This document shows, one piece after another, positions 6,906-32,390 of a stretch of DNA of 39,988 nucleotides. Source of the stretch: Planctomycetaceae bacterium (lineage in GTDB: Bacteria; Planctomycetota; Planctomycetia; Planctomycetales; Planctomycetaceae); NCBI GenBank assembly GCA_029243145.1, contig JAQWSQ010000109.1:1-39988 (forward strand), given 5' to 3'. A model generated the notes under the pieces. That model saw only the letters and a program-made list of their open reading frames with translations, made no database searches and was not told where the DNA came from. Each line of letters opens with the position of its first letter. The stretch's first letter is position 1. The translations under genes were made by a program, and so were the position numbers.

Positions 6906-7691
6906 TCAAACCTTTGCCCCACTCAACGCCTCCAGAATCAAGGCCGCGCTCAGATTCTTCGGGAGCAAGACATCAACGCCGGCGGCTTTCGCGGCAGATT
7001 CTGCCAAGTCGTGAACGATGTTTCGTAATCCAATAATGCGGCATCTGGTGTCACGCCGACGATAGATTTCCAATTGTCGGATGCGGTCTGGTTGCCAGGG
7101 ATCACAATCCCAGAGGACGGCTTCTGGTTGCTGTTCGAGGGAAACAATTTTTCCTCCACAGGACACAACCAATTCGGTCCAGTAGCTTCGCAAGTCACGA
7201 TCCGGTGTAAAGAGCCCGACCGTAATTCCCTCCAAGTCCATTTGATCGGGAAGTTCGGCATCGCGAAGAAATGTTTCTTCCAACGACGCGGTCATTGGCA
7301 AGGGTTCGCGATTTTCGCGTAAAACATCCAGTTCTTGTCGAAAACGGATCTCCAAGCGTTCGCGGGGAACGCAACATCCGGGAGGTAGCCAAGGCCAATG
7401 CCGAATCGCCGAATCGCTCCAACCATCTTGAATGATGATCCAGCGGGCCAAAGGCAATTCGTTCCAGAGTTCGGCGAACTCATCCAGCGACCAGGCTTGT
7501 GTGTAACCTGCCGAGAGAAGTACCAATCGCGGCGGCTGGTCCATGTGAAGTCCGTCACGAATCACTTCAGAGAGGTCGGCATACACGACAAGCTCGGCGT
7601 TCGGGACATGCGCGAGAATCCAATCCTGTAAATCACGGCGAGCGTGAATATCGGAAGCCAAGAGCAGGATTTGAAGTGATTCTGTGGGCAT
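6906..7691 (-). CDS. Protein of unknown function with two receiver-like halves
   Basis: This is a 261-residue soluble protein. The first half (about 5-125) begins 'LQILLLASDIHARRDLQDWI' and alternates hydrophobic strands with helices like a CheY-type receiver. The second half (about 155-260) begins 'ITVGLFTPDRDLRSYWTELV' and ends 'AAGVDVLLPKNLSAALILEAL', again receiver-like, with a Lys near the expected last strand. The usual paired acidic residues and phospho-acceptor Asp are not clear in either half, so these would be pseudo-receivers. ATG 7691 has AGGA 8 bases upstream. The frame extends to 7802, but that extension runs into an intergenic repeat. It is divergent from the pseudokinase gene, which suggests a shared promoter region and possibly related roles. 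Confidence 0.6.
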   Translation of the reverse strand: MPTESLQILLLASDIHARRDLQDWILAHVPNAELVVYADLSEVIRDGLHMDQPPRLVLLSAGYTQAWSLDEFAELWNELPLARWIIIQDGWSDSAIRHWPWLPPGCCVPRERLEIRFRQELDVLRENREPLPMTASLEETFLRDAELPDQMDLEGITVGLFTPDRDLRSYWTELVVSCGGKIVSLEQQPEAVLWDCDPWQPDRIRQLEIYRRRDTRCRIIGLRNIVHDLAESAAKAAGVDVLLPKNLSAALILEALSGAKV

Positions 7692-7760
7692 TTGTGAATT
7701 CCTGGGCAAAGGGGAAGCGTAATCGGAACCAATGACACGAGACAAGTGCAGTTTTTTTCG

Positions 7761-7788
7761 GCTTTCCGCTTTCCCGTTTCCGCTTTCT
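7761..7788. repeat. Short pyrimidine-rich tandem repeat at the kinase 5' end
   Basis: Four degenerate units of the form GCTTTCC occur in a row between the two divergent genes. Both genes have open frames that extend into this tract, producing artificial-looking N-termini on both strands. This is the main reason for preferring the internal starts at 7691 (minus) and 7813 (plus). Confidence 0.4.
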
Positions 7789-7812
7789 ACTCGCCTCTTC
7801 ATCTTGCTGAAT

Positions 7813-10143
7813 ATGGCGAGATCTGGGATAAACTCAGATTACACGGATGTCCCGAAGGAATCACACGACGTGCTGGAACCACTCTCTCCCCGAATGAAAG
7901 AACTGTTGCTGACACACGGCTTGTGTGTTGCCTCAGATCTGCGTCGTTGCCGGCGGAAGGTGAAGCGATTAACCTCGGATCTTCCGGCGTTCGATTCGGT
8001 CTGGATCGATGCTTTGGTCAGTCAGAAATCACTGACCCCGTATCAGGCCACATTGTTAGAATCTGAGCACCCTGAACGGATCACGTCAGGAGAGTACATC
8101 CTGATTGATCGACTTGGTGGCAGGAATCGCTCCGAAACTTTTCTGGCACGAAACCGCAAACGAAAACGATTCTGTCTGGAAACTCTCTCTCTACGTCCAG
8201 AACAACTCGACTCCTCAGAGAATCATCTCAAAGAGACGATTCGCCAACTGGCAGAATGGCATCATTCTCATGTCGTGACTCCCAGAGAAGTCATCAAGCA
8301 GCAAGAATCACTCGTTGTTGTCAGCCAATACATTCCAGGGCTTAGCCTGCGTGAACTTTTGGTTCGACGAGGTCGCTTTCCAGTCCCCGTGGTCATCGCC
8401 ATTGCCCGGCAGGTTCTCACCGGCATGAAGGCTTTGCAGAAAGAAGGGGTCTTCCACGGCGATTTGCGTTTAGAGAACGTGAAACTCTCTCCACGGGGAA
8501 GGGCGATGCTGGTGGAAACGGGAGTCCAAAATGCCGTCACCCCGCAACTTTCCTACGTCACCGACTTATCCACCGAACAGTGTGAAGGAATCGCTCCCGA
8601 ACGAGTCGCAACGGGAAATCGTGTCGACGAACAGACAGAACTTTATGCACTGGGCTGCCTATTATGGCAATTACTGGCAGGACGCCCGGCGATCAAGGAA
8701 GCTGATCCGCTCGCCAAATTAACCGCCCACCAACAACGAGACATCCCCGATGTCCGCGAATGGGCTACCGATGTCCCGGAGAAAATCGCACTGGCCGTCC
8801 GTCAGTTGACTCAACGCGATCCAGAAAAACGTCCCGAATCATTGATTGCGGCTGCCAAACTCTTCGGACGTTCTTCACTCAGTGATCGCAGCAAGCTTCG
8901 TGAATATCAAGCATATTTCCTGTCTCAAGCCCCCGGATGGACAATCAAAGAGCTTTCCGCACGACGCAAAACGTGGCCCTGGATGTTGGCAACTTCTGCC
9001 AGCCTACTCATGATTTCGATGGTGCTCCAGGATGAAGGTGCTCGCACAGAGTTGTTGTCACTGGCAGATCGGGTCACACAAAAGACCGAAGAAATCTTCG
9101 CCGCTCCGCAACCGATTGTTGAGGAAGAAGTCACTGAGTCAAACTATCTGAAACTGCCGACAGCAGATGCCGACGGTGTCATTCTCATCAAAACTTCTGG
9201 CGAATATGAAGCGAAAGATCTGAACGTCGTGGGGCCATTAAAAATCATGACTGACGATGGCATCACGGCCACTCTCATCGTCAAAGAGTCTTGTGAGATT
9301 AGTTGTGAATCACTGACGCTGGAAAATCTCACTGTTCAACAGGAGTTCGTCGCAAAACAGGGCGCCTTGCTGGCGATTCAGTCGCTTGATGTCAAAATCT
9401 CCAACTGTGTATTCGACATGCGAATTCGTTCGTCCCAACTAGCCGACCAACAAACCATTGAACCTTCTCAATTGATCGCGGTTGCCTGGAAATCGATTGA
9501 CCCGGAAGACCGTAGCGGTGGACGTTTTGAACTGGAAAATTCAGTATTCCTCGGCGGAGGAACTCAGCTTTATCTGGGAACCGCTCCCTCATACTGGACG
9601 GTCGAAAATTGCCTGTCGGTTGGTGCCAACTCGTTTGCCCGATTTCGAACTTGGCCAGAACCCGAGAGTCCCCTCACTGGCCAATGGAAGAATCTCAGTC
9701 TTCGTGGGACTGATTCAGCCCTGATTTTCGACCCTGTCAAAACCGATTCACCAGTTGCCGGCGAAATACGACTCACCGCGACTGGTTGTGTTTTCGACCT
9801 GACAGATCAACGTGGCGCATTGTTTCTCTTCAAGCAGGATCGCGTACCGGAAGGTCAATTCTCGTATTTGTCTCTCATGGGCGAAGATTGTGTCGGATCA
9901 GAATCACTCATCGTCGCGGGACACTGGAAATCAGAGAATCAAGTATTACCGCTGGAAGCAAAACGATTACAGATTGAGGGTCTGATTCTGGCTCCGATTC
10001 AGTTCAAGGGTAAATTGACATCGAATCCGACCGATTCTGTTGTGCTGGAAGTCTCTGGACCGCGACTTTCCGCTGATTTTCCGGGGATCGATGCGAGTCA
10101 ATTGCCAATGAATACTGAGGGATTTCTGAAAAGCGATCCTTGA
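7813..10143 (+). CDS. Pseudokinase-like membrane protein with beta-helix-like C-terminus
   Basis: The 776-residue product has an N-terminal helical region like that of other planctomycete Ser/Thr kinases ('LVSQKSLTPYQATLLE'). A Hanks-kinase fold follows (about 93-352). The catalytic loop HGDLRLEN (215-222) and APE (261-263) are kept. The glycine loop is degraded, the VAIK lysine is Glu (123), and DFG reads ETG (235-237). ATP-dependent phosphotransfer is therefore doubtful. One membrane segment (about 388-405) leads to an extracytoplasmic region of about 370 residues with repeating short strands, resembling a right-handed beta-helix ('CESLTLENLTVQQ', 'VKISNCVFDMRI'). The start is uncertain: the frame opens at ATG 7732, but 7732-7812 is repeat sequence. 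It may sense a surface ligand and signal by scaffolding, which is an inference. Confidence 0.72.
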   Translation: MARSGINSDYTDVPKESHDVLEPLSPRMKELLLTHGLCVASDLRRCRRKVKRLTSDLPAFDSVWIDALVSQKSLTPYQATLLESEHPERITSGEYILIDRLGGRNRSETFLARNRKRKRFCLETLSLRPEQLDSSENHLKETIRQLAEWHHSHVVTPREVIKQQESLVVVSQYIPGLSLRELLVRRGRFPVPVVIAIARQVLTGMKALQKEGVFHGDLRLENVKLSPRGRAMLVETGVQNAVTPQLSYVTDLSTEQCEGIAPERVATGNRVDEQTELYALGCLLWQLLAGRPAIKEADPLAKLTAHQQRDIPDVREWATDVPEKIALAVRQLTQRDPEKRPESLIAAAKLFGRSSLSDRSKLREYQAYFLSQAPGWTIKELSARRKTWPWMLATSASLLMISMVLQDEGARTELLSLADRVTQKTEEIFAAPQPIVEEEVTESNYLKLPTADADGVILIKTSGEYEAKDLNVVGPLKIMTDDGITATLIVKESCEISCESLTLENLTVQQEFVAKQGALLAIQSLDVKISNCVFDMRIRSSQLADQQTIEPSQLIAVAWKSIDPEDRSGGRFELENSVFLGGGTQLYLGTAPSYWTVENCLSVGANSFARFRTWPEPESPLTGQWKNLSLRGTDSALIFDPVKTDSPVAGEIRLTATGCVFDLTDQRGALFLFKQDRVPEGQFSYLSLMGEDCVGSESLIVAGHWKSENQVLPLEAKRLQIEGLILAPIQFKGKLTSNPTDSVVLEVSGPRLSADFPGIDASQLPMNTEGFLKSDP

Positions 10144-20742: not shown

Positions 20743-23700
20743 ATGTCATCCACCACTCCATCCAAAGCTTCTTCAAAATATGTCGAGTACGATGAATTCG
20801 TCGACTATCAGTTGGAAAAAACGCGCAGTGAGATCAAGTGGAACGATGTACTAACCACACTGGCCGGCATTGCCACACTCACACTCGCATATCTGTTCAT
20901 GTTCACAATGTTAGATCATTGGGTTATCGACGGAGGCTTCACACGTTCGGCACGAGCCATATTTTTATTCTCACTGGTGATTGTGAGCGCAGGATGGGTG
21001 CTCTGGAAAATTGTGATCCCTTGGTGGCGAAAAGTGCATGCTTTATTTGCGGCTCGCATGATTGAAGAACATGTCCCCGGTTTAAAAAGCAATCTCATCA
21101 ATTTAATCGATCTCGAATCGGCAGGACATAAACCGAATCCTTCGATTCTCAGAGCGATGGAGAAACGATCAGCCGTCGAACTCTCAAAAGTTGATATGGA
21201 GAATGTGATTGATCGCCGACAGCTCTTACGAATTTGTGTCATTCTGCTCGGAGTCGTCGTTCTCTTTTGCCTCTACGCACTCTTCAGCCCGAAACCAATT
21301 TCATTTCTACGACCTCTCACAATCGCCAATGTCCCTGTGGCGACGCAGACGCGAATTGTGGAAGTGAAACCGGGTGATATTTCTGTTCTCGCACGCCGAT
21401 CTTTACCTGTGACGGTCACCCTGCGTGACAAGAAACCGGATCGCGTTCTGTTCCATTACACGACGGACGACGAATCATTCGTGAACGAAGAATTGGAGAT
21501 GCAACCGAATGAGGAAAAAGAGGGCGAGTATTTGTTGATGTTTGCGGGTGAGAACGGCGATGGCATCGGTCAGAAAACAACCTATTATGTCACAGCCGGT
21601 GATGCTCGTTCCGAGACATTCACCATTGGGGTGCAACAAGTCCCCACGGCGACCATCGAGCGAATTGAATATCGTTATCCAAATTATATGGAACTGGAGC
21701 CGCGATCACAGTTCATCGGAGCCATTGATGCCTGGGAAGGCACCGATATTTTTCTGGACGCCCGCATCGGGAATGATGTTCCGGTGAAATCGGCAGTTGT
21801 GCAGTTCGTTGATTCCGACATGAACTCAACAGGATATGAAGAAGTTCCACTAACTGTGATCGACGGCAATCGTTTGCAAGGTTCGTGGAAACTGGAATTT
21901 CGCAATGACGGAACCTACGCACGAGAGTACCGAATTCTGTGCAAGTCGGAAGCAGGACTCAGTGAAGACGATCCTCCCACATATCCGATTCTCATCCGCC
22001 CCGACACGGCCCCCGAAGTGGGATTCGTCGATCCTTCGGGAGACATCGAACGTCCCGCGAATGCAGTCATCCCATTGGTTTACAAAGCCAGAGATCCAGA
22101 TTTCCAACTCCGGTATGTGACACTCCGCGTGGAAAAAGAAGGGGAAGAACTGCAAAGCTATCAACTCTTTGGTGGGCAACAGAAAGCGGTCGCGGATCGA
22201 TTTCGCTGGGAATTGAAACCGCTGGGACTCCAGCCGGGAGACATCGTCAGCTTCGCGTTGGAAGCCCGCGACAACAAACAACCCTTTGGGAATCGTCGTT
22301 CCTCGCAACCACTCAAATTGACCATCACGGCTCCTGCCGAGCCAGAAGTGATCGAAGAACAACTTCGCAAAGAGGAAGCCGAGCAGGAACCTCAACTGCA
22401 AGACGAACAACAAGATGCCGCTGAAGAGAACGGCGAAGAAGGTGGTGACTCATCCTCCGAAGAAGCCGGTGAAGAATCTGGCGAGAACACCTCTGAAGCG
22501 GGGACCGAAGAGACAGAGGGCAACAAATCAGAAGACAATAAAAGTGGTCCGCCAAAAGGAGACCAACCGAAGGATAAAAACTCAGACCCGCAGAACAAGC
22601 AGCAAGAAGATCAACCGAAAGAAGGAGACAATCCGACTCCCGACGATCAACCAAAAGCTGAGCCATCTGACACGGACGGTATGGGCGATGAATCTGAAAT
22701 GCCAGAAACTGGTGAAGAAAACGGAAAACAGGAAGGAGAGCCAAACGCCCTCAAAAATGATGGCACCGACGATGCCGAGGCTCTCGAAAAGATCATCAAG
22801 GATCAGAAAGAGAAGGGGGACCAAGCATCGGGAGCTGGTGAGAGTGGTGAAGAACAATCCGGCGAAGAGGGTGGCTCAGGCGCAGAAATGCCCGATGACG
22901 AAGCCTCCAACGATCCCGCTCAACCGGGAGCCGGTAACGGTGCCAACAAAAAAGAGCAGAAGTCGGACGATCCCAAGAATCCCGGCAACAAAGTGGATAT
23001 TCCCTCGAACGATGAGACGGGTGAAGAGAGCGAGGGCCCCGGTGACGAGAAACGCCCCGGCGACCCTAATGCAAAAGGAACCGGAACACCTGAAGAGAAT
23101 GCCAATTCCGAAAACGCCACCAAAGCCAATGATCCTGACAACATCAAACGAAAAGACGGTACCGACCCGAGTACAGTTCCTTCCGAGGATCCCCATAATT
23201 CCGACAATCCCAAAAAAGAAAACACCGATCAATCTACGGACCGACCTCCCAATGCGGGGGAAGAAAAAGGAAATCCGAACAGCCCCGGCGCGAAAAACCA
23301 ACCTGATGGACCCGATCGCCCCGATCCGGGCGAAGGCGATCCAAAAGAGCAACGCTCGAAAAACCCGGATTCGGGAGAGACCGGAAGTTCTCAACAAGCT
23401 TCTGATGGTCAAAAAGGCGGCACCGAAAAAGGGAACGGCGAAAGCACAGAAAAACCAGGTGACACAGCAGAGAATCCCGAAGGGAAACCGGGTGGCAAGC
23501 CGGGAGAACCGATGTCTGATCAAAAACAATCAGGCGAAGGAAAACCGGGAAGCGAGAAATCATCAAAGGGAGAAGGGAAAGGGGAATCTTCGGGTGAAGG
23601 TTCCGGTAGTGGAGAAGGGAAGGGGGATCCAAAAGGTGAACTCGGCGAAGGCTCTGCGGGAGGAATAGGGACAAAGCCCGGCACGAACGGCGGTGGAGCC

Positions 23701-24144
23701 GGTTCGAGTGAAGCAGGTCCAAGCAGTGATTCAGGAAAGACCAGCTCGGGAACTCCTGAAGAACAAAACCTCGATCACGCCAAACAAGCCGCCGATCTTG
23801 TATTGAAACGTCTGGAACAACAACTCAAACGGGGAGAAGTGAGCGACGAATTGCTCGATGAACTCGGTTGGACTGAAGGACAAATGCGAGCATTTGCTGA
23901 TCGAATGCGCCAACAACTCGCACAGAATCGAGCAGAATTGACGAACGAGGAACAAATCCGACAGCGTCAGTTTGAAGAGATGTTAAAAAACATGAATTTC
24001 CAACCCAAAGAGGAAACGTCTCAAAGTAATAACTCTCAGCTAGGTCGAGCGACTCGAAGTTTCGGCAGTCGAAACATTCCCGTACCCATCGAATACCGGG
24101 ATGCGTACGAAGCATTCACGCGTGAATTGGGGCGTAAGAAGTAA
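20743..24144 (+). CDS. Large membrane protein with a long charged low-complexity region (DUF4175-like)
   Basis: The 1133-residue product has three N-terminal membrane helices (about 37-57, 72-92 and 164-186). A beta-rich extracytoplasmic region follows to about residue 535. Next come about 470 residues dominated by Glu, Gly, Lys, Asn, Asp, Pro, Ser and Gln (about 536-1006). The C-terminal part is helical ('AADLVLKRLEQQLKRGEVSD', 'FADRMRQQLAQN'). The layout resembles DUF4175-type proteins next to BatA/VWA genes in other planctomycetes. The low-complexity region is likely disordered. It leaves long spurious open frames on both strands. It ends the co-directional block begun at 15951. Confidence 0.75.
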   Translation: MSSTTPSKASSKYVEYDEFVDYQLEKTRSEIKWNDVLTTLAGIATLTLAYLFMFTMLDHWVIDGGFTRSARAIFLFSLVIVSAGWVLWKIVIPWWRKVHALFAARMIEEHVPGLKSNLINLIDLESAGHKPNPSILRAMEKRSAVELSKVDMENVIDRRQLLRICVILLGVVVLFCLYALFSPKPISFLRPLTIANVPVATQTRIVEVKPGDISVLARRSLPVTVTLRDKKPDRVLFHYTTDDESFVNEELEMQPNEEKEGEYLLMFAGENGDGIGQKTTYYVTAGDARSETFTIGVQQVPTATIERIEYRYPNYMELEPRSQFIGAIDAWEGTDIFLDARIGNDVPVKSAVVQFVDSDMNSTGYEEVPLTVIDGNRLQGSWKLEFRNDGTYAREYRILCKSEAGLSEDDPPTYPILIRPDTAPEVGFVDPSGDIERPANAVIPLVYKARDPDFQLRYVTLRVEKEGEELQSYQLFGGQQKAVADRFRWELKPLGLQPGDIVSFALEARDNKQPFGNRRSSQPLKLTITAPAEPEVIEEQLRKEEAEQEPQLQDEQQDAAEENGEEGGDSSSEEAGEESGENTSEAGTEETEGNKSEDNKSGPPKGDQPKDKNSDPQNKQQEDQPKEGDNPTPDDQPKAEPSDTDGMGDESEMPETGEENGKQEGEPNALKNDGTDDAEALEKIIKDQKEKGDQASGAGESGEEQSGEEGGSGAEMPDDEASNDPAQPGAGNGANKKEQKSDDPKNPGNKVDIPSNDETGEESEGPGDEKRPGDPNAKGTGTPEENANSENATKANDPDNIKRKDGTDPSTVPSEDPHNSDNPKKENTDQSTDRPPNAGEEKGNPNSPGAKNQPDGPDRPDPGEGDPKEQRSKNPDSGETGSSQQASDGQKGGTEKGNGESTEKPGDTAENPEGKPGGKPGEPMSDQKQSGEGKPGSEKSSKGEGKGESSGEGSGSGEGKGDPKGELGEGSAGGIGTKPGTNGGGAGSSEAGPSSDSGKTSSGTPEEQNLDHAKQAADLVLKRLEQQLKRGEVSDELLDELGWTEGQMRAFADRMRQQLAQNRAELTNEEQIRQRQFEEMLKNMNFQPKEETSQSNNSQLGRATRSFGSRNIPVPIEYRDAYEAFTRELGRKK

Positions 24145-24193: not shown

Positions 24194-25045
24194 CTACTCT
24201 CGTCCCGGTTTCGGTAGCTGATGAGCTTCAACGATACGATTGTAGAATTCCGGGCGACGGTCGGCGAGTCGATCAATCGAATGTTTTCCGGGAATTCGTT
24301 CCACTCGTTTCTTGCGAGCTGCTGCCGGATCAATATCGGCATAGAGAATCGCTTCGTCGCGATGATTGGCGACGGCCAATGTTTCTCCCGCAACACCACA
24401 AATTCGACTTTGACCAATGAAGTCATAACCTCGCTCGTGCCCAACACGATTGACGGCAGCGTAATAAACACCATTCTCCATCGCGCGAGTGTTAATCGCA
24501 TGCTCGGCGACATGCTCGGCACCGGGAGGCCAATTCGTGGGAAGCGCAATCAAGTCAGCCCCTAACAGGGTCAGCTCTCGTGACGACTCGGGAAAGGCAG
24601 AGTCGTAACAGATATTCAGACCCACCTTGAGATCTCCCGCATCGATCACATCAAAGGGCCGATCTCCGAACGTCGAAAACTGATCGACTCCCAAAAATGG
24701 CAGATGCACCTTGCGATATGCGCCCAGCAGACCATTCCCGTTGACCATCACCGCTGCGTTAAAAACACCGTTCTCACCAACCGGCTCCAACATTCCAAAG
24801 ACAACCATGCCACCAAAATCGGCACACGCATCAATCATCACCTGCACACTCGGTCCGGGAATAGGTTCCGCAAATTGACGGGCTTCTTCGAGAGAATCAA
24901 AACAGTAACCGTTGAGCGCACATTCCGGGAAGATGGTCAGGTCTGCTCCTTCTGCACGAGTTTCTTTGAACCGTGCGATCATCTTGTCGAGATTCTCGCT
25001 GACTTCTCCGATTTTTACATCCATTTGTATGCCGGCAATTTTCAT
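24194..25045 (-). CDS. Carbon-nitrogen hydrolase (nitrilase superfamily)
   Basis: The 283-residue enzyme has the full nitrilase triad: E41 in 'TIFPEC', K112 in 'YRKVHLPF' and C146 in 'LNICYDSAFPESSR'. Such proteins hydrolyse amides or nitriles, for example omega-amides, N-carbamoyl compounds or polyamine intermediates; which one is not visible. The length and closing 'RRPEFYNRIVE' fit the family. ATG 25045 begins directly with 'MKIAGIQMDV', the first strand. Upstream in-frame Met codons (to 25078) add residues with no homology look. It is divergent from the sulfatase and convergent with the large membrane protein. Confidence 0.9.
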   Translation of the reverse strand: MKIAGIQMDVKIGEVSENLDKMIARFKETRAEGADLTIFPECALNGYCFDSLEEARQFAEPIPGPSVQVMIDACADFGGMVVFGMLEPVGENGVFNAAVMVNGNGLLGAYRKVHLPFLGVDQFSTFGDRPFDVIDAGDLKVGLNICYDSAFPESSRELTLLGADLIALPTNWPPGAEHVAEHAINTRAMENGVYYAAVNRVGHERGYDFIGQSRICGVAGETLAVANHRDEAILYADIDPAAARKKRVERIPGKHSIDRLADRRPEFYNRIVEAHQLPKPGRE

Positions 25046-25172
25046 CGATCTCTCACTCATTCGTTTCAGGGCTTGCAATTGGGGCTTGTGTCATTGGAAG
25101 ATAGAGAACGTACCAAGCGGACGGGTTCACCACACACCAAAGAACTTTTTGCTTTCCCTGAAGGATACACGA

Positions 25173-26657
25173 ATGCGTTCTCATTTTCTGCTGGCTCTCC
25201 TGATTCTGATCTCATCGGTCACATCAACACTATCAGCGCAGGAGATCCTCAAACGACCAAACATACTTTTTGCGATCTCCGACGATCAGTCGTACCCACA
25301 TGCTGGAGCTTATGGGGACCAAGGGGTCAAAACCCCCGCATTTGATCGTGTTGCGCGTGAAGGAGCGCTGTTTCACACATGTTTGGCAGGTTCACCCGGT
25401 TGCAGTCCCTCAAGGGCCGCGTTACTCACCGGTCGCCATACATGGGAGATTGAACAAGCCGGCACTCACGCCAGTTCTTTTCCGAAAACGTATCAGGTTT
25501 ACCCAGACATTTTAGAACAGGCGGGATACTTCGTTGGCTATACCGGGAAAGGGTGGGGGCCGGGAAATTGGAAAATCAGCGGTCGTACCCGAAACCCTTG
25601 TGGAGAAAACTACAGCAAGATCACAGCAAAAACACCTCCCGGAATTCGCTCGACCGATTACGCAGCCAACTTCGAAGCGTTCCTCAAAGATAAACCAGCC
25701 GATGAGCCGTTCTGCTTCTGGTACGGTGCTTCCGAACCACATCGCAGTTACCAAAAAGGAATCGGCCTCGAACACGGAAAAACGCTCGAAGACGCGACCG
25801 TGCCGTCATTCTTGCCCGACACACCTGAAATTCGTAGCGACATCCTCGACTACTATTTTGAAATCGAATGGTTTGACAAACACCTCACTCGCATTCTGAA
25901 GACACTCGAGGAATTGGGAGAACTTGATAACACTTTGATCATTGTCACGGCAGACAATGGTATGCCATTTCCCAGAGCGAAAGCCAACGGCTATGAATAC
26001 GGCGTCCATGTTCCCTTGGCGATTCGGTATCCAAAATATGTTCCCGCAGGTGTTGACGTAAAACAACCGGTCGATTTTGTGGACTTAGCGCCAACGATGC
26101 TTGAGGCGGCAGGCCTGTTTCCGACCATCGCAATGAGCGGAGAAAGCCTATTCCCACTGATGCAGGGAAAGTCGAATGATTATGGCCCCGCGTTTTCAGC
26201 ACGGGAACGTCACTCCTCATCACGATATAATAATATGACATACCCCATCAGGAGCATGAGAACGGACGACTATCTACTGATTTGGAATCCGCGACCGGAA
26301 CGTTGGCCCGCCGGCCATCCGGCACCTTTCAAGAACGATCCCGTTGGCTTTTATGACATCGATGCATGCCCATCAAAGACGTTCCTGTGGGAAAATCGAG
26401 ACGATGAGAAAATCGGTCCTTACTTTCAGCTCTCTGTCGATAAACGCCCCGAATGGGAACTTTACAACCCAAAAAGCGATCCGGGTAATCTCCACAATCT
26501 GGCAGACGACTCACAGTTCAAATCGAACTTGTCGACGCTTCAAAAAACGATGCTTGAATATTTGCGGGAGACGGCTGACCCTCGCGTCATCAACGGTGGC
26601 GACATCTACGAAGATTACATTCGGTACTCACAGATTCGCAAGTTTCCTGAAGAATAA
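25173..26657 (+). CDS. Secreted sulfatase, heparan N-sulfatase-like
   Basis: This 494-residue type I sulfatase has a signal peptide (about 1-22). Metal-binding D37/D38 are in 'ILFAISDDQS'. The formylglycine motif C77-S-P-S-R81 is followed by 'AALLTGRH', so an FGE-type maturase should be present elsewhere. 'GYFVGYTGKGWGPGNW' and 'VTADNGMPFPRAK' match the N-sulfoglucosamine sulfohydrolase branch. It probably removes sulfate from imported or extracellular polysaccharides. ATG 25173 follows AAGGA by 8 bases. The frame extends upstream to 24912, but that part overlaps the nitrilase gene antisense and is not believed. Confidence 0.9.
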   Translation: MRSHFLLALLILISSVTSTLSAQEILKRPNILFAISDDQSYPHAGAYGDQGVKTPAFDRVAREGALFHTCLAGSPGCSPSRAALLTGRHTWEIEQAGTHASSFPKTYQVYPDILEQAGYFVGYTGKGWGPGNWKISGRTRNPCGENYSKITAKTPPGIRSTDYAANFEAFLKDKPADEPFCFWYGASEPHRSYQKGIGLEHGKTLEDATVPSFLPDTPEIRSDILDYYFEIEWFDKHLTRILKTLEELGELDNTLIIVTADNGMPFPRAKANGYEYGVHVPLAIRYPKYVPAGVDVKQPVDFVDLAPTMLEAAGLFPTIAMSGESLFPLMQGKSNDYGPAFSARERHSSSRYNNMTYPIRSMRTDDYLLIWNPRPERWPAGHPAPFKNDPVGFYDIDACPSKTFLWENRDDEKIGPYFQLSVDKRPEWELYNPKSDPGNLHNLADDSQFKSNLSTLQKTMLEYLRETADPRVINGGDIYEDYIRYSQIRKFPEE

Positions 26658-29481: not shown

Positions 29482-30882
29482 TTACTTCTCTGTCCCGTTC
29501 TTTTCACTCGCGAACAGTGGAAACTTCTCGCTCGGGGTGTGAGCTTGATCCATGAGTTTCACCAGTTCTTTCAGCTTCTCGGGTTGTTGTTTCGCGAGGT
29601 TGATCTTTTCTCCCAGATCGTTTTTCAAGTTGTACAACTCGGGAGCTTTCGGTTTTTTGGAACTGACTTTCAACTGCACGACCTTCCAATCTCCCTGACG
29701 CAAAGCACGTTTTCCACCTTGTTCGGAGAACTCCCAGTAGAGAGATTCGTGCTTAAATTGTTTCTCCGGTTGGTCGAGCAACGTCGGTAGAAAACTGATG
29801 CCATCAATATTGTCGGGGGGCTCGACATTCACCAGTTCGGCGAGTGTCGGCAAGACATCCTGAAAACCGGAGATGTGATCGGTCACTCGTCCCGGTTCGA
29901 TGACTCCCGGCCAGCGGGCAATCATCGGCGTGATGATGCCACCTTCGTAGAGATCCCGTTTGATCCCACGATAGGGGCCGTTGCTGTCAAAGAAGTCTGG
30001 GTCGGCACCACCGGCAGAAGTCGCTCCATTATCGCTGGTGAACATGACGAGTGTCTTCTCATCAATATTCAACTCTTTGAGCAAGTTCATAATACGACCG
30101 ATATCGCGATCCATATGAGTGATCATGCCGGCGAATGTGGCGTGAGGATGCTTTTCGTGCCGATAATGTTGGCCTCCCGGTGTGCCGTAAGGTTTTTCGG
30201 GTTCGAGTTTTCCCAGATACTCGGCTTTGGAGTCTTCGGGAACGTCGAGATCGACATGTGGGATCGTGAACGGCAGATAGAGGAAGAACCGTTCTTTCTG
30301 ATGTTGTTTAATAAATTCAAGGGCGTCTGACGCAAACAGGTCGTGGCTGTAATGAGTGCGCTCCGTGGGGTTATCGGGATATAGAACTTTCTCGCCGTCG
30401 TTCCAGAGATAGTCCTGATAGTAATGGTGAGCGCGGCTTTGATTCAGATAGCCGAAGTAGTGATCGAAGCCCTGTTTCCAGGGTGCGCCGGCATCAGACT
30501 CCGACCCGACTCCCCATTTCCCCATCGCCCCCGTGACATAACCCGCCTGCTTCATGATTTCACCAATGGTGACATCTTCGTCAAGCAGGTGAGCACCTTT
30601 GCCGTTACCGCGAACGCGAGTGTGACCGGTATGTTGGCCGGTCAATAAAACACTGCGCGAGGGAGCACACACAGTGCTTCCCGAGTAATGCTGAGTGAAC
30701 TTCAATCCCTCGTCACACAAGCGGTCGACATTCGGAGTGCGAATGATTTTTCCGCCATAACAACCGAAGTCTCCTATGCCCGCATCATCGGCCATTATGT
30801 AGATGACGTTGGGAGCAGCGGCATCAAGTGGTGAAAGATTGACAGAAATCATCACCAATAAAACAACGATCAGAGAGCGCAT
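29482..30882 (-). CDS. Secreted arylsulfatase
   Basis: The 466-residue type I sulfatase has a signal peptide (about 1-22). Metal-binding D32/D33 are in 'IMADDAGIGDFGCYGG', and the formylglycine motif is C72-A-P-S-R76 with 'SVLLTGQHTGHTRVRGN'. 'MFTSDNGATSAGG' supplies further metal ligands. It resembles the arylsulfatase A/atsG group common in planctomycetes. The substrate is probably a sulfated glycan. It lies 47 bases downstream of the next sulfatase on the same strand, so the two are probably cotranscribed. Confidence 0.92.
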   Translation of the reverse strand: MRSLIVVLLVMISVNLSPLDAAAPNVIYIMADDAGIGDFGCYGGKIIRTPNVDRLCDEGLKFTQHYSGSTVCAPSRSVLLTGQHTGHTRVRGNGKGAHLLDEDVTIGEIMKQAGYVTGAMGKWGVGSESDAGAPWKQGFDHYFGYLNQSRAHHYYQDYLWNDGEKVLYPDNPTERTHYSHDLFASDALEFIKQHQKERFFLYLPFTIPHVDLDVPEDSKAEYLGKLEPEKPYGTPGGQHYRHEKHPHATFAGMITHMDRDIGRIMNLLKELNIDEKTLVMFTSDNGATSAGGADPDFFDSNGPYRGIKRDLYEGGIITPMIARWPGVIEPGRVTDHISGFQDVLPTLAELVNVEPPDNIDGISFLPTLLDQPEKQFKHESLYWEFSEQGGKRALRQGDWKVVQLKVSSKKPKAPELYNLKNDLGEKINLAKQQPEKLKELVKLMDQAHTPSEKFPLFASEKNGTEK

Positions 30883-30929: not shown

Positions 30930-32390
30930 TTAATCAATCTCGGGGATTGGATCGGTCGGGGCGACATCTTTGCCTTCCCAATTCACCTGGCCGTTTTTGA
31001 ATGTCAGGATGCGATGAGCGCTACCCGGAACCGGATCGACATCGACTTTCGGTAACCATTTGCGATGCTCGGCGATAATCTTTGCGTAGCCTTTGTCGGC
31101 AGCAACGTTGTTCCACTCTTGCGGGTCTTTTTGCAAATCGTAAAGTTCTTCTGAACCATCGGCGTAATGAATGTAGCGATAGTTTTCCGTGCGGATGCCG
31201 TGATTGCCGGTATTGTGAGTGGTGATGGCGGGCCATTTTCTCGTAGCGTTTTGGTCTTTGAGTTGCGGGACCAGTGAGTGACCTTCGAGTCCACCCGGAG
31301 AGGAGAGACCACACAGTTCATTCAGAGTGGGGTAAATGTCCAATAATTCCGCAGGAGAGGTCACTTTGCCTCCGGCTGTGATTCCAGGACCGGCAAAGAT
31401 CAGCGGCACACGGGTGCCATCGTCCCAAAGCGTATTCTTGCCGGTGATCTCTTTTTCACCGATGTGCCAACCGTGATCCGACCAGAGCACAATGATGGTG
31501 TTGTCTCGAAGTCCTTTTGCGTCGAGAGCCGTCATGATACGACCGATTTGATGATCAACAAAGCTGGTACAGGCCAGATAGGAACGACACAGATTATGCC
31601 ATTCGTTGGCTTCTTGCAGAAACTGCAATCGTGGTTCGGGAAGTTTCCAATGGAGATACCAAGAGAATCGCGGGGTGTCTTTGCGGTCGTCGAATTTCAC
31701 GGGAGGCAAAACGGAATCGTCGTCGGGGTAGAGGTCGTACCATTTTTGAGTGGTATAACAGGGAACGTGTGGTAGGAAAAAACCGACTGAGAGAAAGAAC
31801 GGATCTTTAGGGCCTTTTTCGATCTGGTCAACAGCCCACGACGCGACGACGTAATCTTGTTTGTCTTTGTCTTCATGCGGGAAGACTCCCCAATCGACGA
31901 GAGGATGCGGGGCAGGGGTCTTGACCAGTTTTTCTTTCGGTCGTGCGCCGACACCGGCGGCGGGGCCGAGAGTGTCAAACTCGTTGTCCGTCTTTCTGCG
32001 ACCATAACCGCCGTGATAAATTTTTCCGGTGGAGTAAGTGTGATAGCCATTCGCTTTGAGGTGCTGAGGTAAGCTGGTCACGTCTTTCCATTGGGGGACT
32101 TGTCGAAACCACGGGGCCAAACCATAAACGCCTGTGGTTGAGGGACGTTTGCCCGTCATCAGGCTGGTGCGTGAGGGATTACAGAGCGGAGACTGACAAT
32201 GGGCGTTCAGGAAGATGGTCCCCGCTTCGCCGATCTTGTCGATATTGGGAGTTTTGGCGAGAGGGTGACCGCCCAGACATCCGATCCAGTCATTCTGGTC
32301 ATCAATGGCAATGAACAGGATGTTGGGTTTCTCGGCTGCGGAGAGAGTTGCGGTCAGCAAAAACAGGCCCAGACATAGCGACTTGCGCAT
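30930..32390 (-). CDS. Secreted sulfatase, iduronate-2-sulfatase-like
   Basis: This 486-residue type I sulfatase has a signal peptide (about 1-19), D30/D31 in 'FIAIDDQNDWIG', and the formylglycine motif C70-N-P-S-R74 with 'TSLMTGKRPSTTGVYG'. 'GFFLPHVP' and 'LWSDHGWHIGEKEITGKNTLW' are typical of iduronate-2-sulfatase relatives. It probably acts on sulfated uronic-acid-containing polysaccharide, which is a family-based guess. It is the first gene of a two-sulfatase transcript on the minus strand. Confidence 0.92.
   Translation of the reverse strand: MRKSLCLGLFLLTATLSAAEKPNILFIAIDDQNDWIGCLGGHPLAKTPNIDKIGEAGTIFLNAHCQSPLCNPSRTSLMTGKRPSTTGVYGLAPWFRQVPQWKDVTSLPQHLKANGYHTYSTGKIYHGGYGRRKTDNEFDTLGPAAGVGARPKEKLVKTPAPHPLVDWGVFPHEDKDKQDYVVASWAVDQIEKGPKDPFFLSVGFFLPHVPCYTTQKWYDLYPDDDSVLPPVKFDDRKDTPRFSWYLHWKLPEPRLQFLQEANEWHNLCRSYLACTSFVDHQIGRIMTALDAKGLRDNTIIVLWSDHGWHIGEKEITGKNTLWDDGTRVPLIFAGPGITAGGKVTSPAELLDIYPTLNELCGLSSPGGLEGHSLVPQLKDQNATRKWPAITTHNTGNHGIRTENYRYIHYADGSEELYDLQKDPQEWNNVAADKGYAKIIAEHRKWLPKVDVDPVPGSAHRILTFKNGQVNWEGKDVAPTDPIPEID

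Follow-up and report, generated by a model that had tools for sequence, protein, structure and literature searches.

A membrane pseudokinase family of the Planctomycetaceae with a predicted extracytoplasmic beta-helix and a putative receptor role

The locus considered here, which lies in a window of 39,988 nucleotides from a Planctomycetaceae bacterium (contig JAQWSQ010000109.1 of assembly GCA_029243145.1), raises the question of what a membrane-bound protein with a kinase fold does when several residues of its catalytic centre have been replaced. The original prediction described a pseudokinase joined by a single membrane helix to a beta-helix-like outer region, and suggested that it signals by binding and not by phosphorylation. 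The reading frame is open on the forward strand from an ATG at 7732 to 10143, and the ATG at 7813 gives a protein of 776 amino acids (Table 1). The AlphaFold2 model, built from 60 aligned sequences comprising the window protein and 59 loci on named contigs (L183, which has an internal stop, was omitted from the structure alignment), displays an N-terminal helical domain (helices at residues 26-90), a protein-kinase fold (95-350), one membrane helix (388-404), a further helix (408-428) and a right-handed beta-helix with strands from 456 to 747. Mean pLDDT of the whole protein is 85.5 and pTM 0.51, so the relative orientation of the domains is not fixed by the model. Both the kinase fold and the beta-helix that had been guessed from the sequence were nevertheless recovered by this prediction of residues 1-776.

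Table 1. Features of the pseudokinase gene, in window coordinates
Feature	Position	Strand	Evidence
Whole gene, 776-aa membrane pseudokinase with beta-helix ectodomain	7813..10143	+	ORF reading, Pfam, AlphaFold2, orthologues
N-terminal helical domain, residues 20-92	7870..8088	+	AlphaFold2, alignment
Protein-kinase fold, residues 93-350	8089..8862	+	Pfam PF00069, Foldseek 9ymt E 4.2e-17, VIA Z 29.7
Beta-3 motif FCLE, VAIK Lys replaced by Glu123 (codon GAA)	8170..8181 (codon 8179-8181)	+	Alignment
Alpha-C Glu position, Thr142	8236..8238	+	Alignment
RRGRFP, residues 185-190, alpha-D/alpha-E segment, candidate partner surface	8365..8382	+	Alignment
Catalytic loop HGDLRLEN, residues 215-222, with Asp and Asn intact and Arg at the catalytic Lys	8455..8478	+	Alignment
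ETG replacing DFG, residues 235-237	8515..8523	+	Alignment
APE, residues 261-263	8593..8601	+	Alignment
Membrane helix, residues 388-404	8974..9024	+	Hydropathy, AlphaFold2, K/R balance
Right-handed beta-helix, predicted extracytoplasmic, residues 446-765	9148..10107	+	AlphaFold2, Foldseek, VIA

The kinase part combines a profile match above the curated cut-off with a two-lobed fold. The Pfam Pkinase model scores 88.3 bits over residues 100-342 (E 7.4e-25; curated cut-off 31.7), and a second, related model, PF07714, also matches; Stk1 is the nearest solved relative both by sequence (phmmer E 3e-21) and by fold (Foldseek rank 1, E 4.2e-17), while MST3 (8qlq) aligns over 268 residues with a VIA Z of 29.7 and an rmsd of 2.3. 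The motif reading of the original prediction stood both on direct inspection and on the alignment: HGD, its Asn and APE are kept, the VAIK Lys is Glu and DFG is ETG. Two lesions that it did not list are Thr142 at the alpha-C Glu and Arg219 at the catalytic-loop Lys, and the Arg of HRD is Gly. Measured against a canonical Hanks-type Ser/Thr kinase, the window protein thus has the HRD Asp and the Asn but lacks the beta-3 Lys, the alpha-C Glu, the catalytic-loop Lys and DFG.

Whether these losses are conserved was judged from one orthologue per genome of the same GTDB family. Among 155 matching genomes 147 sequences were taken (G037, G165, G012, G013, G082, G084, G131 and G163 being outside the first-round set), and removal of the frameshifted L086 left 146 rows, some of them cut by contig ends. 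The 146 also exclude the second matches of G088 and G129, as well as five sequences read later: L303, L304, L305 and L307 (a contig-end piece), which come from four of the eight genomes just named, and L306 (from G058, which has no match at 1e-30). The loss of the VAIK Lys did not prove to be a conserved trait: the beta-3 residue is Lys in 84 orthologues, Arg in 24, Thr in 16, Ser in nine, Ala in six, Ile in three and each of four other residues in one, with Glu found in the window protein alone. Indeed the two same-genus orthologues, which are 89% and 72% identical to the window protein, read FCLK while keeping ETG, a motif that is therefore genus-wide among the three genomes seen. As the GAA codon at residue 123 is replaced by the Lys codons AAG and AAA in these two relatives, Glu123 is either a recent change or a sequence error; present in one assembly only, it could be the latter.

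Other positions have been lost far more uniformly. The alpha-C Glu is retained by just three of the 146 orthologues (Leu 96, Val 16), although all six aligned kinases from the same genome carry it. The catalytic-loop Lys occurs in none (Arg 77, Val 19, Ser 16), and the Phe of DFG likewise in none (Ala 50, Pro 39, Thr 30, Gly 17, others), so no orthologue has a literal DFG. These three are the conserved, family-wide lesions. The remaining elements are kept to differing degrees: in HRD the His is found in 143 rows, the Arg is Gly in 138, and the third position is Asp in 108 and Glu in 25; the catalytic-loop Asn is present in 126, the DFG Asp in 91 and its Gly in 107; and the three APE positions are conserved in 137, 143 and 143 rows, respectively. 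The beta-3 Lys, HRD Asp and DFG Asp occur together in 58 orthologues, of which 56 also carry the Asn, and all three are missing from 15. Not one of the 146 proteins combines these three residues with the alpha-C Glu and the catalytic Lys. Orthologues with intact VAIK and DFG, which by the original prediction's own standard would refute it, thus exist only by half: 58 keep the Lys and both Asp residues, but none has DFG itself.

As a control, 26 of the 27 further kinase matches in the same genome were read (L008, with an internal stop, was omitted; L321, L323, L327, L329 and L330 are incomplete or poorly aligned). The beta-3 Lys, alpha-C Glu and DFG Asp were each present in 23 of the 26, the HRD Asp in 25 and the catalytic Lys in 24, the misses being mostly cut-off or misaligned rows. 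Since these kinases are largely intact, the losses mark the pseudokinase family and not the other kinases of the genome. Separately, one of the same-genome kinases (L324, contig C64) reads VAIR at beta-3 and keeps HGD and DFG, and is possibly a second non-canonical kinase.

Replacement of the alpha-C Glu by a hydrophobic residue and of the DFG Phe by a small one eliminates both the Lys-Glu bridge and the regulatory spine in its usual form. With alpha-C Glu, DFG Phe and catalytic Lys all lost, no member of the family is likely to carry out canonical phosphotransfer, and we consider that catalysis has very probably been lost. It could be argued, however, that the protein still binds ATP or Mg and serves as a nucleotide-dependent switch or a weak non-canonical kinase. 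The HRD Asp (108/146) and Asn (126/146) are widely kept, beta-3 is Lys or Arg in 108 of the 146, and the 58 orthologues with both Asp residues and the beta-3 Lys make weak activity or ATP binding possible in part of the family; furthermore, PMC12599244 describes DYD pseudokinases that lack the alpha-C Glu and have been modelled with ATP. Against this, the catalytic Lys is absent from all 146 orthologues and the alpha-C Glu from all but three, the window protein has Glu at beta-3, and orthologues in sister families lack the Lys and the Asn and mostly also the DFG Asp. As an account of the family a nucleotide switch is therefore rather unlikely, although nucleotide binding may survive in those members that keep the KDD residues.

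The distribution of the gene argues that the protein does something useful. Orthologues matching at E <= 1e-30 were found in 155 of 170 family genomes and 55 of 58 genera, with a single match in nearly all, and a profile search of contigs with alignment located 80 named loci in the Planctomycetaceae, including Gimesia, Schlesneria, Fuerstiella and Planctomicrobium. The gene is likely to be truly absent from at least one genome, the single-contig G003, which has no match at 1e-30 and in which the best profile match (4.5e-44) is at the level of an ordinary kinase. When 297 genomes from across the class were searched, the full-length profile found matches over all or nearly all of its length in seven sister families as well (f2, in genus g59 only, f3, f4, f108, f109, f112 and f116), and a gap separates these orthologues from ordinary kinases, which match only over approximately positions 49-335. 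In 14 sister-family rows the beta-3 Lys, alpha-C Glu, catalytic Lys and Asn are absent throughout, the HRD Asp remains in eight and the DFG Asp in two. The three sister-family proteins searched against Pfam (L251, L252 and L253) match no family at E <= 1; in these and in L292-L302 the kinase part is eroded or shortened, yet the proteins still carry the N-terminal motif, the beta part and, from the RGR segment, the GR.

A single quick tree, in which some long-branch joins are unsure, places the 146 rows in one clade relative to nine other kinases (SH-aLRT 100) and implies minima of 8 changes of the beta-3 Lys, 16 of the HRD Asp and 13 of the DFG Asp. Such repeated replacement of catalytic residues is what would be expected of a kinase decaying without function, but this explanation is barely credible, contradicted as it is by constraint on the reading frame and by matches in 155 genomes of 55 genera. 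Compared with the nearest relative, the gene as a whole has a dN/dS of 0.114; by region the values are 0.046 (N-terminal domain), 0.097 (kinase part), 0.084 (linker) and 0.116 (beta-helix), and the neighbouring pyrB gives 0.018. The kinase part is under purifying selection that is weaker than that on pyrB.

What selection has fixed lies largely away from the catalytic centre. Over the 146 rows conservation is 1.00 at R185, G187, R188, G281, R291, R340, P58 and Q78, and 0.97-0.99 at F60, W64, D61, D66 and other positions, such that P58, F60, D61, W64, D66 and Q78 of the N-terminal domain are nearly or fully invariant. W64, D66, Q78, G187 and R188 are present in all 14 sister-family rows, while R188 and R185 are shared by 3 and 2, respectively, of the 26 other kinases of the genome. 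The RRGRFP segment, which is distant from the phosphate site, is hence a candidate contact surface. A similar N-terminal helical domain with an LT..Q motif precedes, by eye, several other kinases of the genome (L003, L005, L007 and L321 among them), and the pseudokinase therefore seems to derive from this common kinase type. The same pattern of conservation bears on the proposal that the altered fold has acquired a new enzymatic activity, for which the AMPylase SelO and the glutamylase SidJ are precedents (PMC12599244). In contrast to a conserved new active site, the pocket varies freely (beta-3 K/R/T/S/A/E; HRD position D/E/A/N/H; DFG position D/N/H/A/E/S) and the most conserved positions lie outside it, making this proposal very improbable.

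The single membrane helix that had been proposed to join the kinase to the repeat-strand region is likewise predicted, at residues 388-404. In the window protein the best 19-residue hydropathy of the linker is a weak 1.37, but it is at least 1.6 in 51 of the 60 rows; another hydrophobic segment occurs elsewhere in eight. Lys and Arg predominate on the side of the helix that faces the kinase in 41 rows, are rarer there in 13 and evenly split in six, a balance that favours a kinase inside and a beta-helix outside.

The C-terminal region consists of coiled short strands and matches solved beta-helices across the domain, and the beta-helix-like character first ascribed to it is well supported: modelled alone (mfafc7ebdb55a) it reaches a pLDDT of 90.4 and a pTM of 0.91, and in VIA the PL6 alginate lyase 7dmk_B ranks first (Z 21.8; 15% identity over 268 aligned residues at an rmsd of 3.4). 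Pectate lyases, tailspikes and other beta-helix proteins follow among the lower VIA matches, and the one chain that Foldseek places below E 0.001 is chondroitinase B (1dbg, 7.3e-4). With glycan-acting enzymes as its nearest solved folds, the outer part could itself be a polysaccharide-lyase-like enzyme that the inner half merely anchors or regulates. In PL6 enzymes, however, catalysis is located in the first beta-helix, and the region matched here is the second (residues 435-747 of BcAlyPL6), a resemblance of fold alone. Furthermore, mean column identity in the domain is 27% with few invariant polar residues, its constraint is no stronger than that of the inner half, no Pfam family matches it in any of the 60 rows, and the beta-helix profile found no significant match among the sequences of solved structures. 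A lyase is thus an improbable reading.

Taken together, these data lead us to favour, with a confidence somewhat above even, a conserved receptor-like pseudokinase that acts by binding, without phosphotransfer; that it would signal by binding, as originally suggested, is a fair inference. Outside the inner membrane the right-handed beta-helix would bind a glycan or wall polymer, and the membrane helix would couple it to the cytoplasmic pseudokinase with its helical N-terminal domain. The state of the outside ligand, or clustering, would then alter the arrangement of the pseudokinase, which would bind a partner, most likely an active Ser/Thr kinase of the cell or a kinase substrate, through the conserved N-terminal domain and the RRGRFP and alpha-F surfaces. 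The parts of this proposal differ in strength: a receptor or scaffold role is reasonably probable, a glycan ligand for the beta-helix is possible but falls short of an even chance, and an active kinase as the partner is a tentative suggestion. A bolder version is doubtful as a whole: an ancient, order-wide receptor pseudokinase, one copy per genome, would bind glycans outside and allosterically control active Ser/Thr kinases inside, its catalytic centre having eroded throughout the existence of the group, with a single binding surface left unchanged.

The surroundings of the gene provide little guidance to a partner. In 126 testable loci pyrB lies directly downstream in 25, too few to retain a link to pyrimidine synthesis, and a divergent receiver-like gene lies just upstream in 11; the commonest other neighbour cluster occurs in 15 of 120 loci, and no neighbour indicates a partner. 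As no neighbour is general, the gene is not tied to one operon and its function cannot be read from context. The PADLOC kinase models PD-T4-6 and mad6 match the kinase part, as they possibly would any kinase, and a defence role, which gained no further support, was set aside. The searched text of an essential-gene paper on Planctopirus limnophila (PMC10632474) does not contain the word kinase. In the window the divergent gene (6906-7691, reverse strand) encodes a 261-aa receiver-like protein with, by eye, two receiver-like halves; it has no NCBIfam match, and a longer reading of 298 aa has no Pfam match. Elsewhere in the window, a 1133-aa protein (20743-24144, forward strand) without a Pfam match contains a long low-complexity stretch rich in Gly, Glu, Ser, Asp and Lys, which causes an AT skew of 0.447 at 22-24 kb, and three sulfatase genes (24912-26657, 29482-30882 and 30930-32390) lie inside 8 kb.

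To our knowledge, little is known about how the large kinomes of planctomycetes are coordinated. A first look at the family genomes gave 17-140 kinase-like candidates in each, and Gemmataceae kinomes comprise 98 to 140 kinases, according to the searched text of PMC11032199. A single-copy pseudokinase receptor found across the family and its sisters would be a defined, testable node in such kinomes. It could have been overlooked, since the KDD scoring of the planctomycete kinase survey described in that text (PMC11032199) would count 58 of the 146 members as functional. The family also grades from Gimesia orthologues that bear KDD to orthologues of f2 with a kinase part beyond the reach of Pfam, a series that would let one examine what the fold retains after catalysis has been lost.

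The open-access literature searched yielded no description of this pseudokinase family, and the searched text of PMC12599244, which treats seven bacterial pseudokinase families, makes no mention of planctomycetes. Membership of the GLW pseudokinases was rejected because the window protein has HGD and the His is kept in 143 of 146 orthologues, and membership of the DYD pseudokinases because the window protein reads FCLE and ETG and the second motif position in the family is A, P, T, G, V, S or H. The original statement that such a design is not commonly described in bacteria was, however, too strong, as both MviN and EssB/YukC are presented as membrane pseudokinases in PMC12599244. There, MviN of mycobacteria has a cytoplasmic pseudokinase domain of the ActPs3 family that recruits FhaA without phosphotransfer, the same combination of membrane protein and cytoplasmic pseudokinase as in the window protein; it differs in being an essential peptidoglycan-synthesis protein of actinobacteria with VALT and no HRD (PMC12599244), whereas the window protein has one membrane helix and a beta-helix ectodomain, keeps HGD and APE and belongs to a planctomycete. 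EssB/YukC, described in the same text as a monotopic transmembrane pseudokinase and scaffold of type VII secretion in Firmicutes (PMC12599244), is part of a secretion machine; in contrast, the window protein has an outer beta-helix and no common neighbour gene.

A related beta-helix-like part appears to occur on active planctomycete kinases. L250, L254, L256 and L258 have a C-terminal match to the beta-helix profile (E 1e-9 to 1e-15) behind the kinase domain, but in the tree these kinases (L250 being represented by L002) lie outside the clade of the pseudokinases, and they keep their catalytic motifs, except for HRE in L250. The L250 protein (L250:2756-6655, contig C165 of the same genome; 1299 aa, profile match E 1.4e-9) has HRE for HRD while keeping VALK, the alpha-C Glu, the catalytic Lys and DLG; six other profile-matching kinases read HRD. 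The second beta-helix of the PL6 alginate lyases has the same fold as the outer domain without a match at the sequence level. In PknB and Stk1 a kinase is followed by a single membrane helix and an outer PASTA sensor. The window protein shares this plan of kinase, one helix and outer sensor, but has lost catalytic residues and has a beta-helix in place of PASTA. Thus, membrane pseudokinases being already known, the new aspect is a mostly single-copy, family-wide pseudokinase that is built like a receptor and has a beta-helix as its putative sensor.
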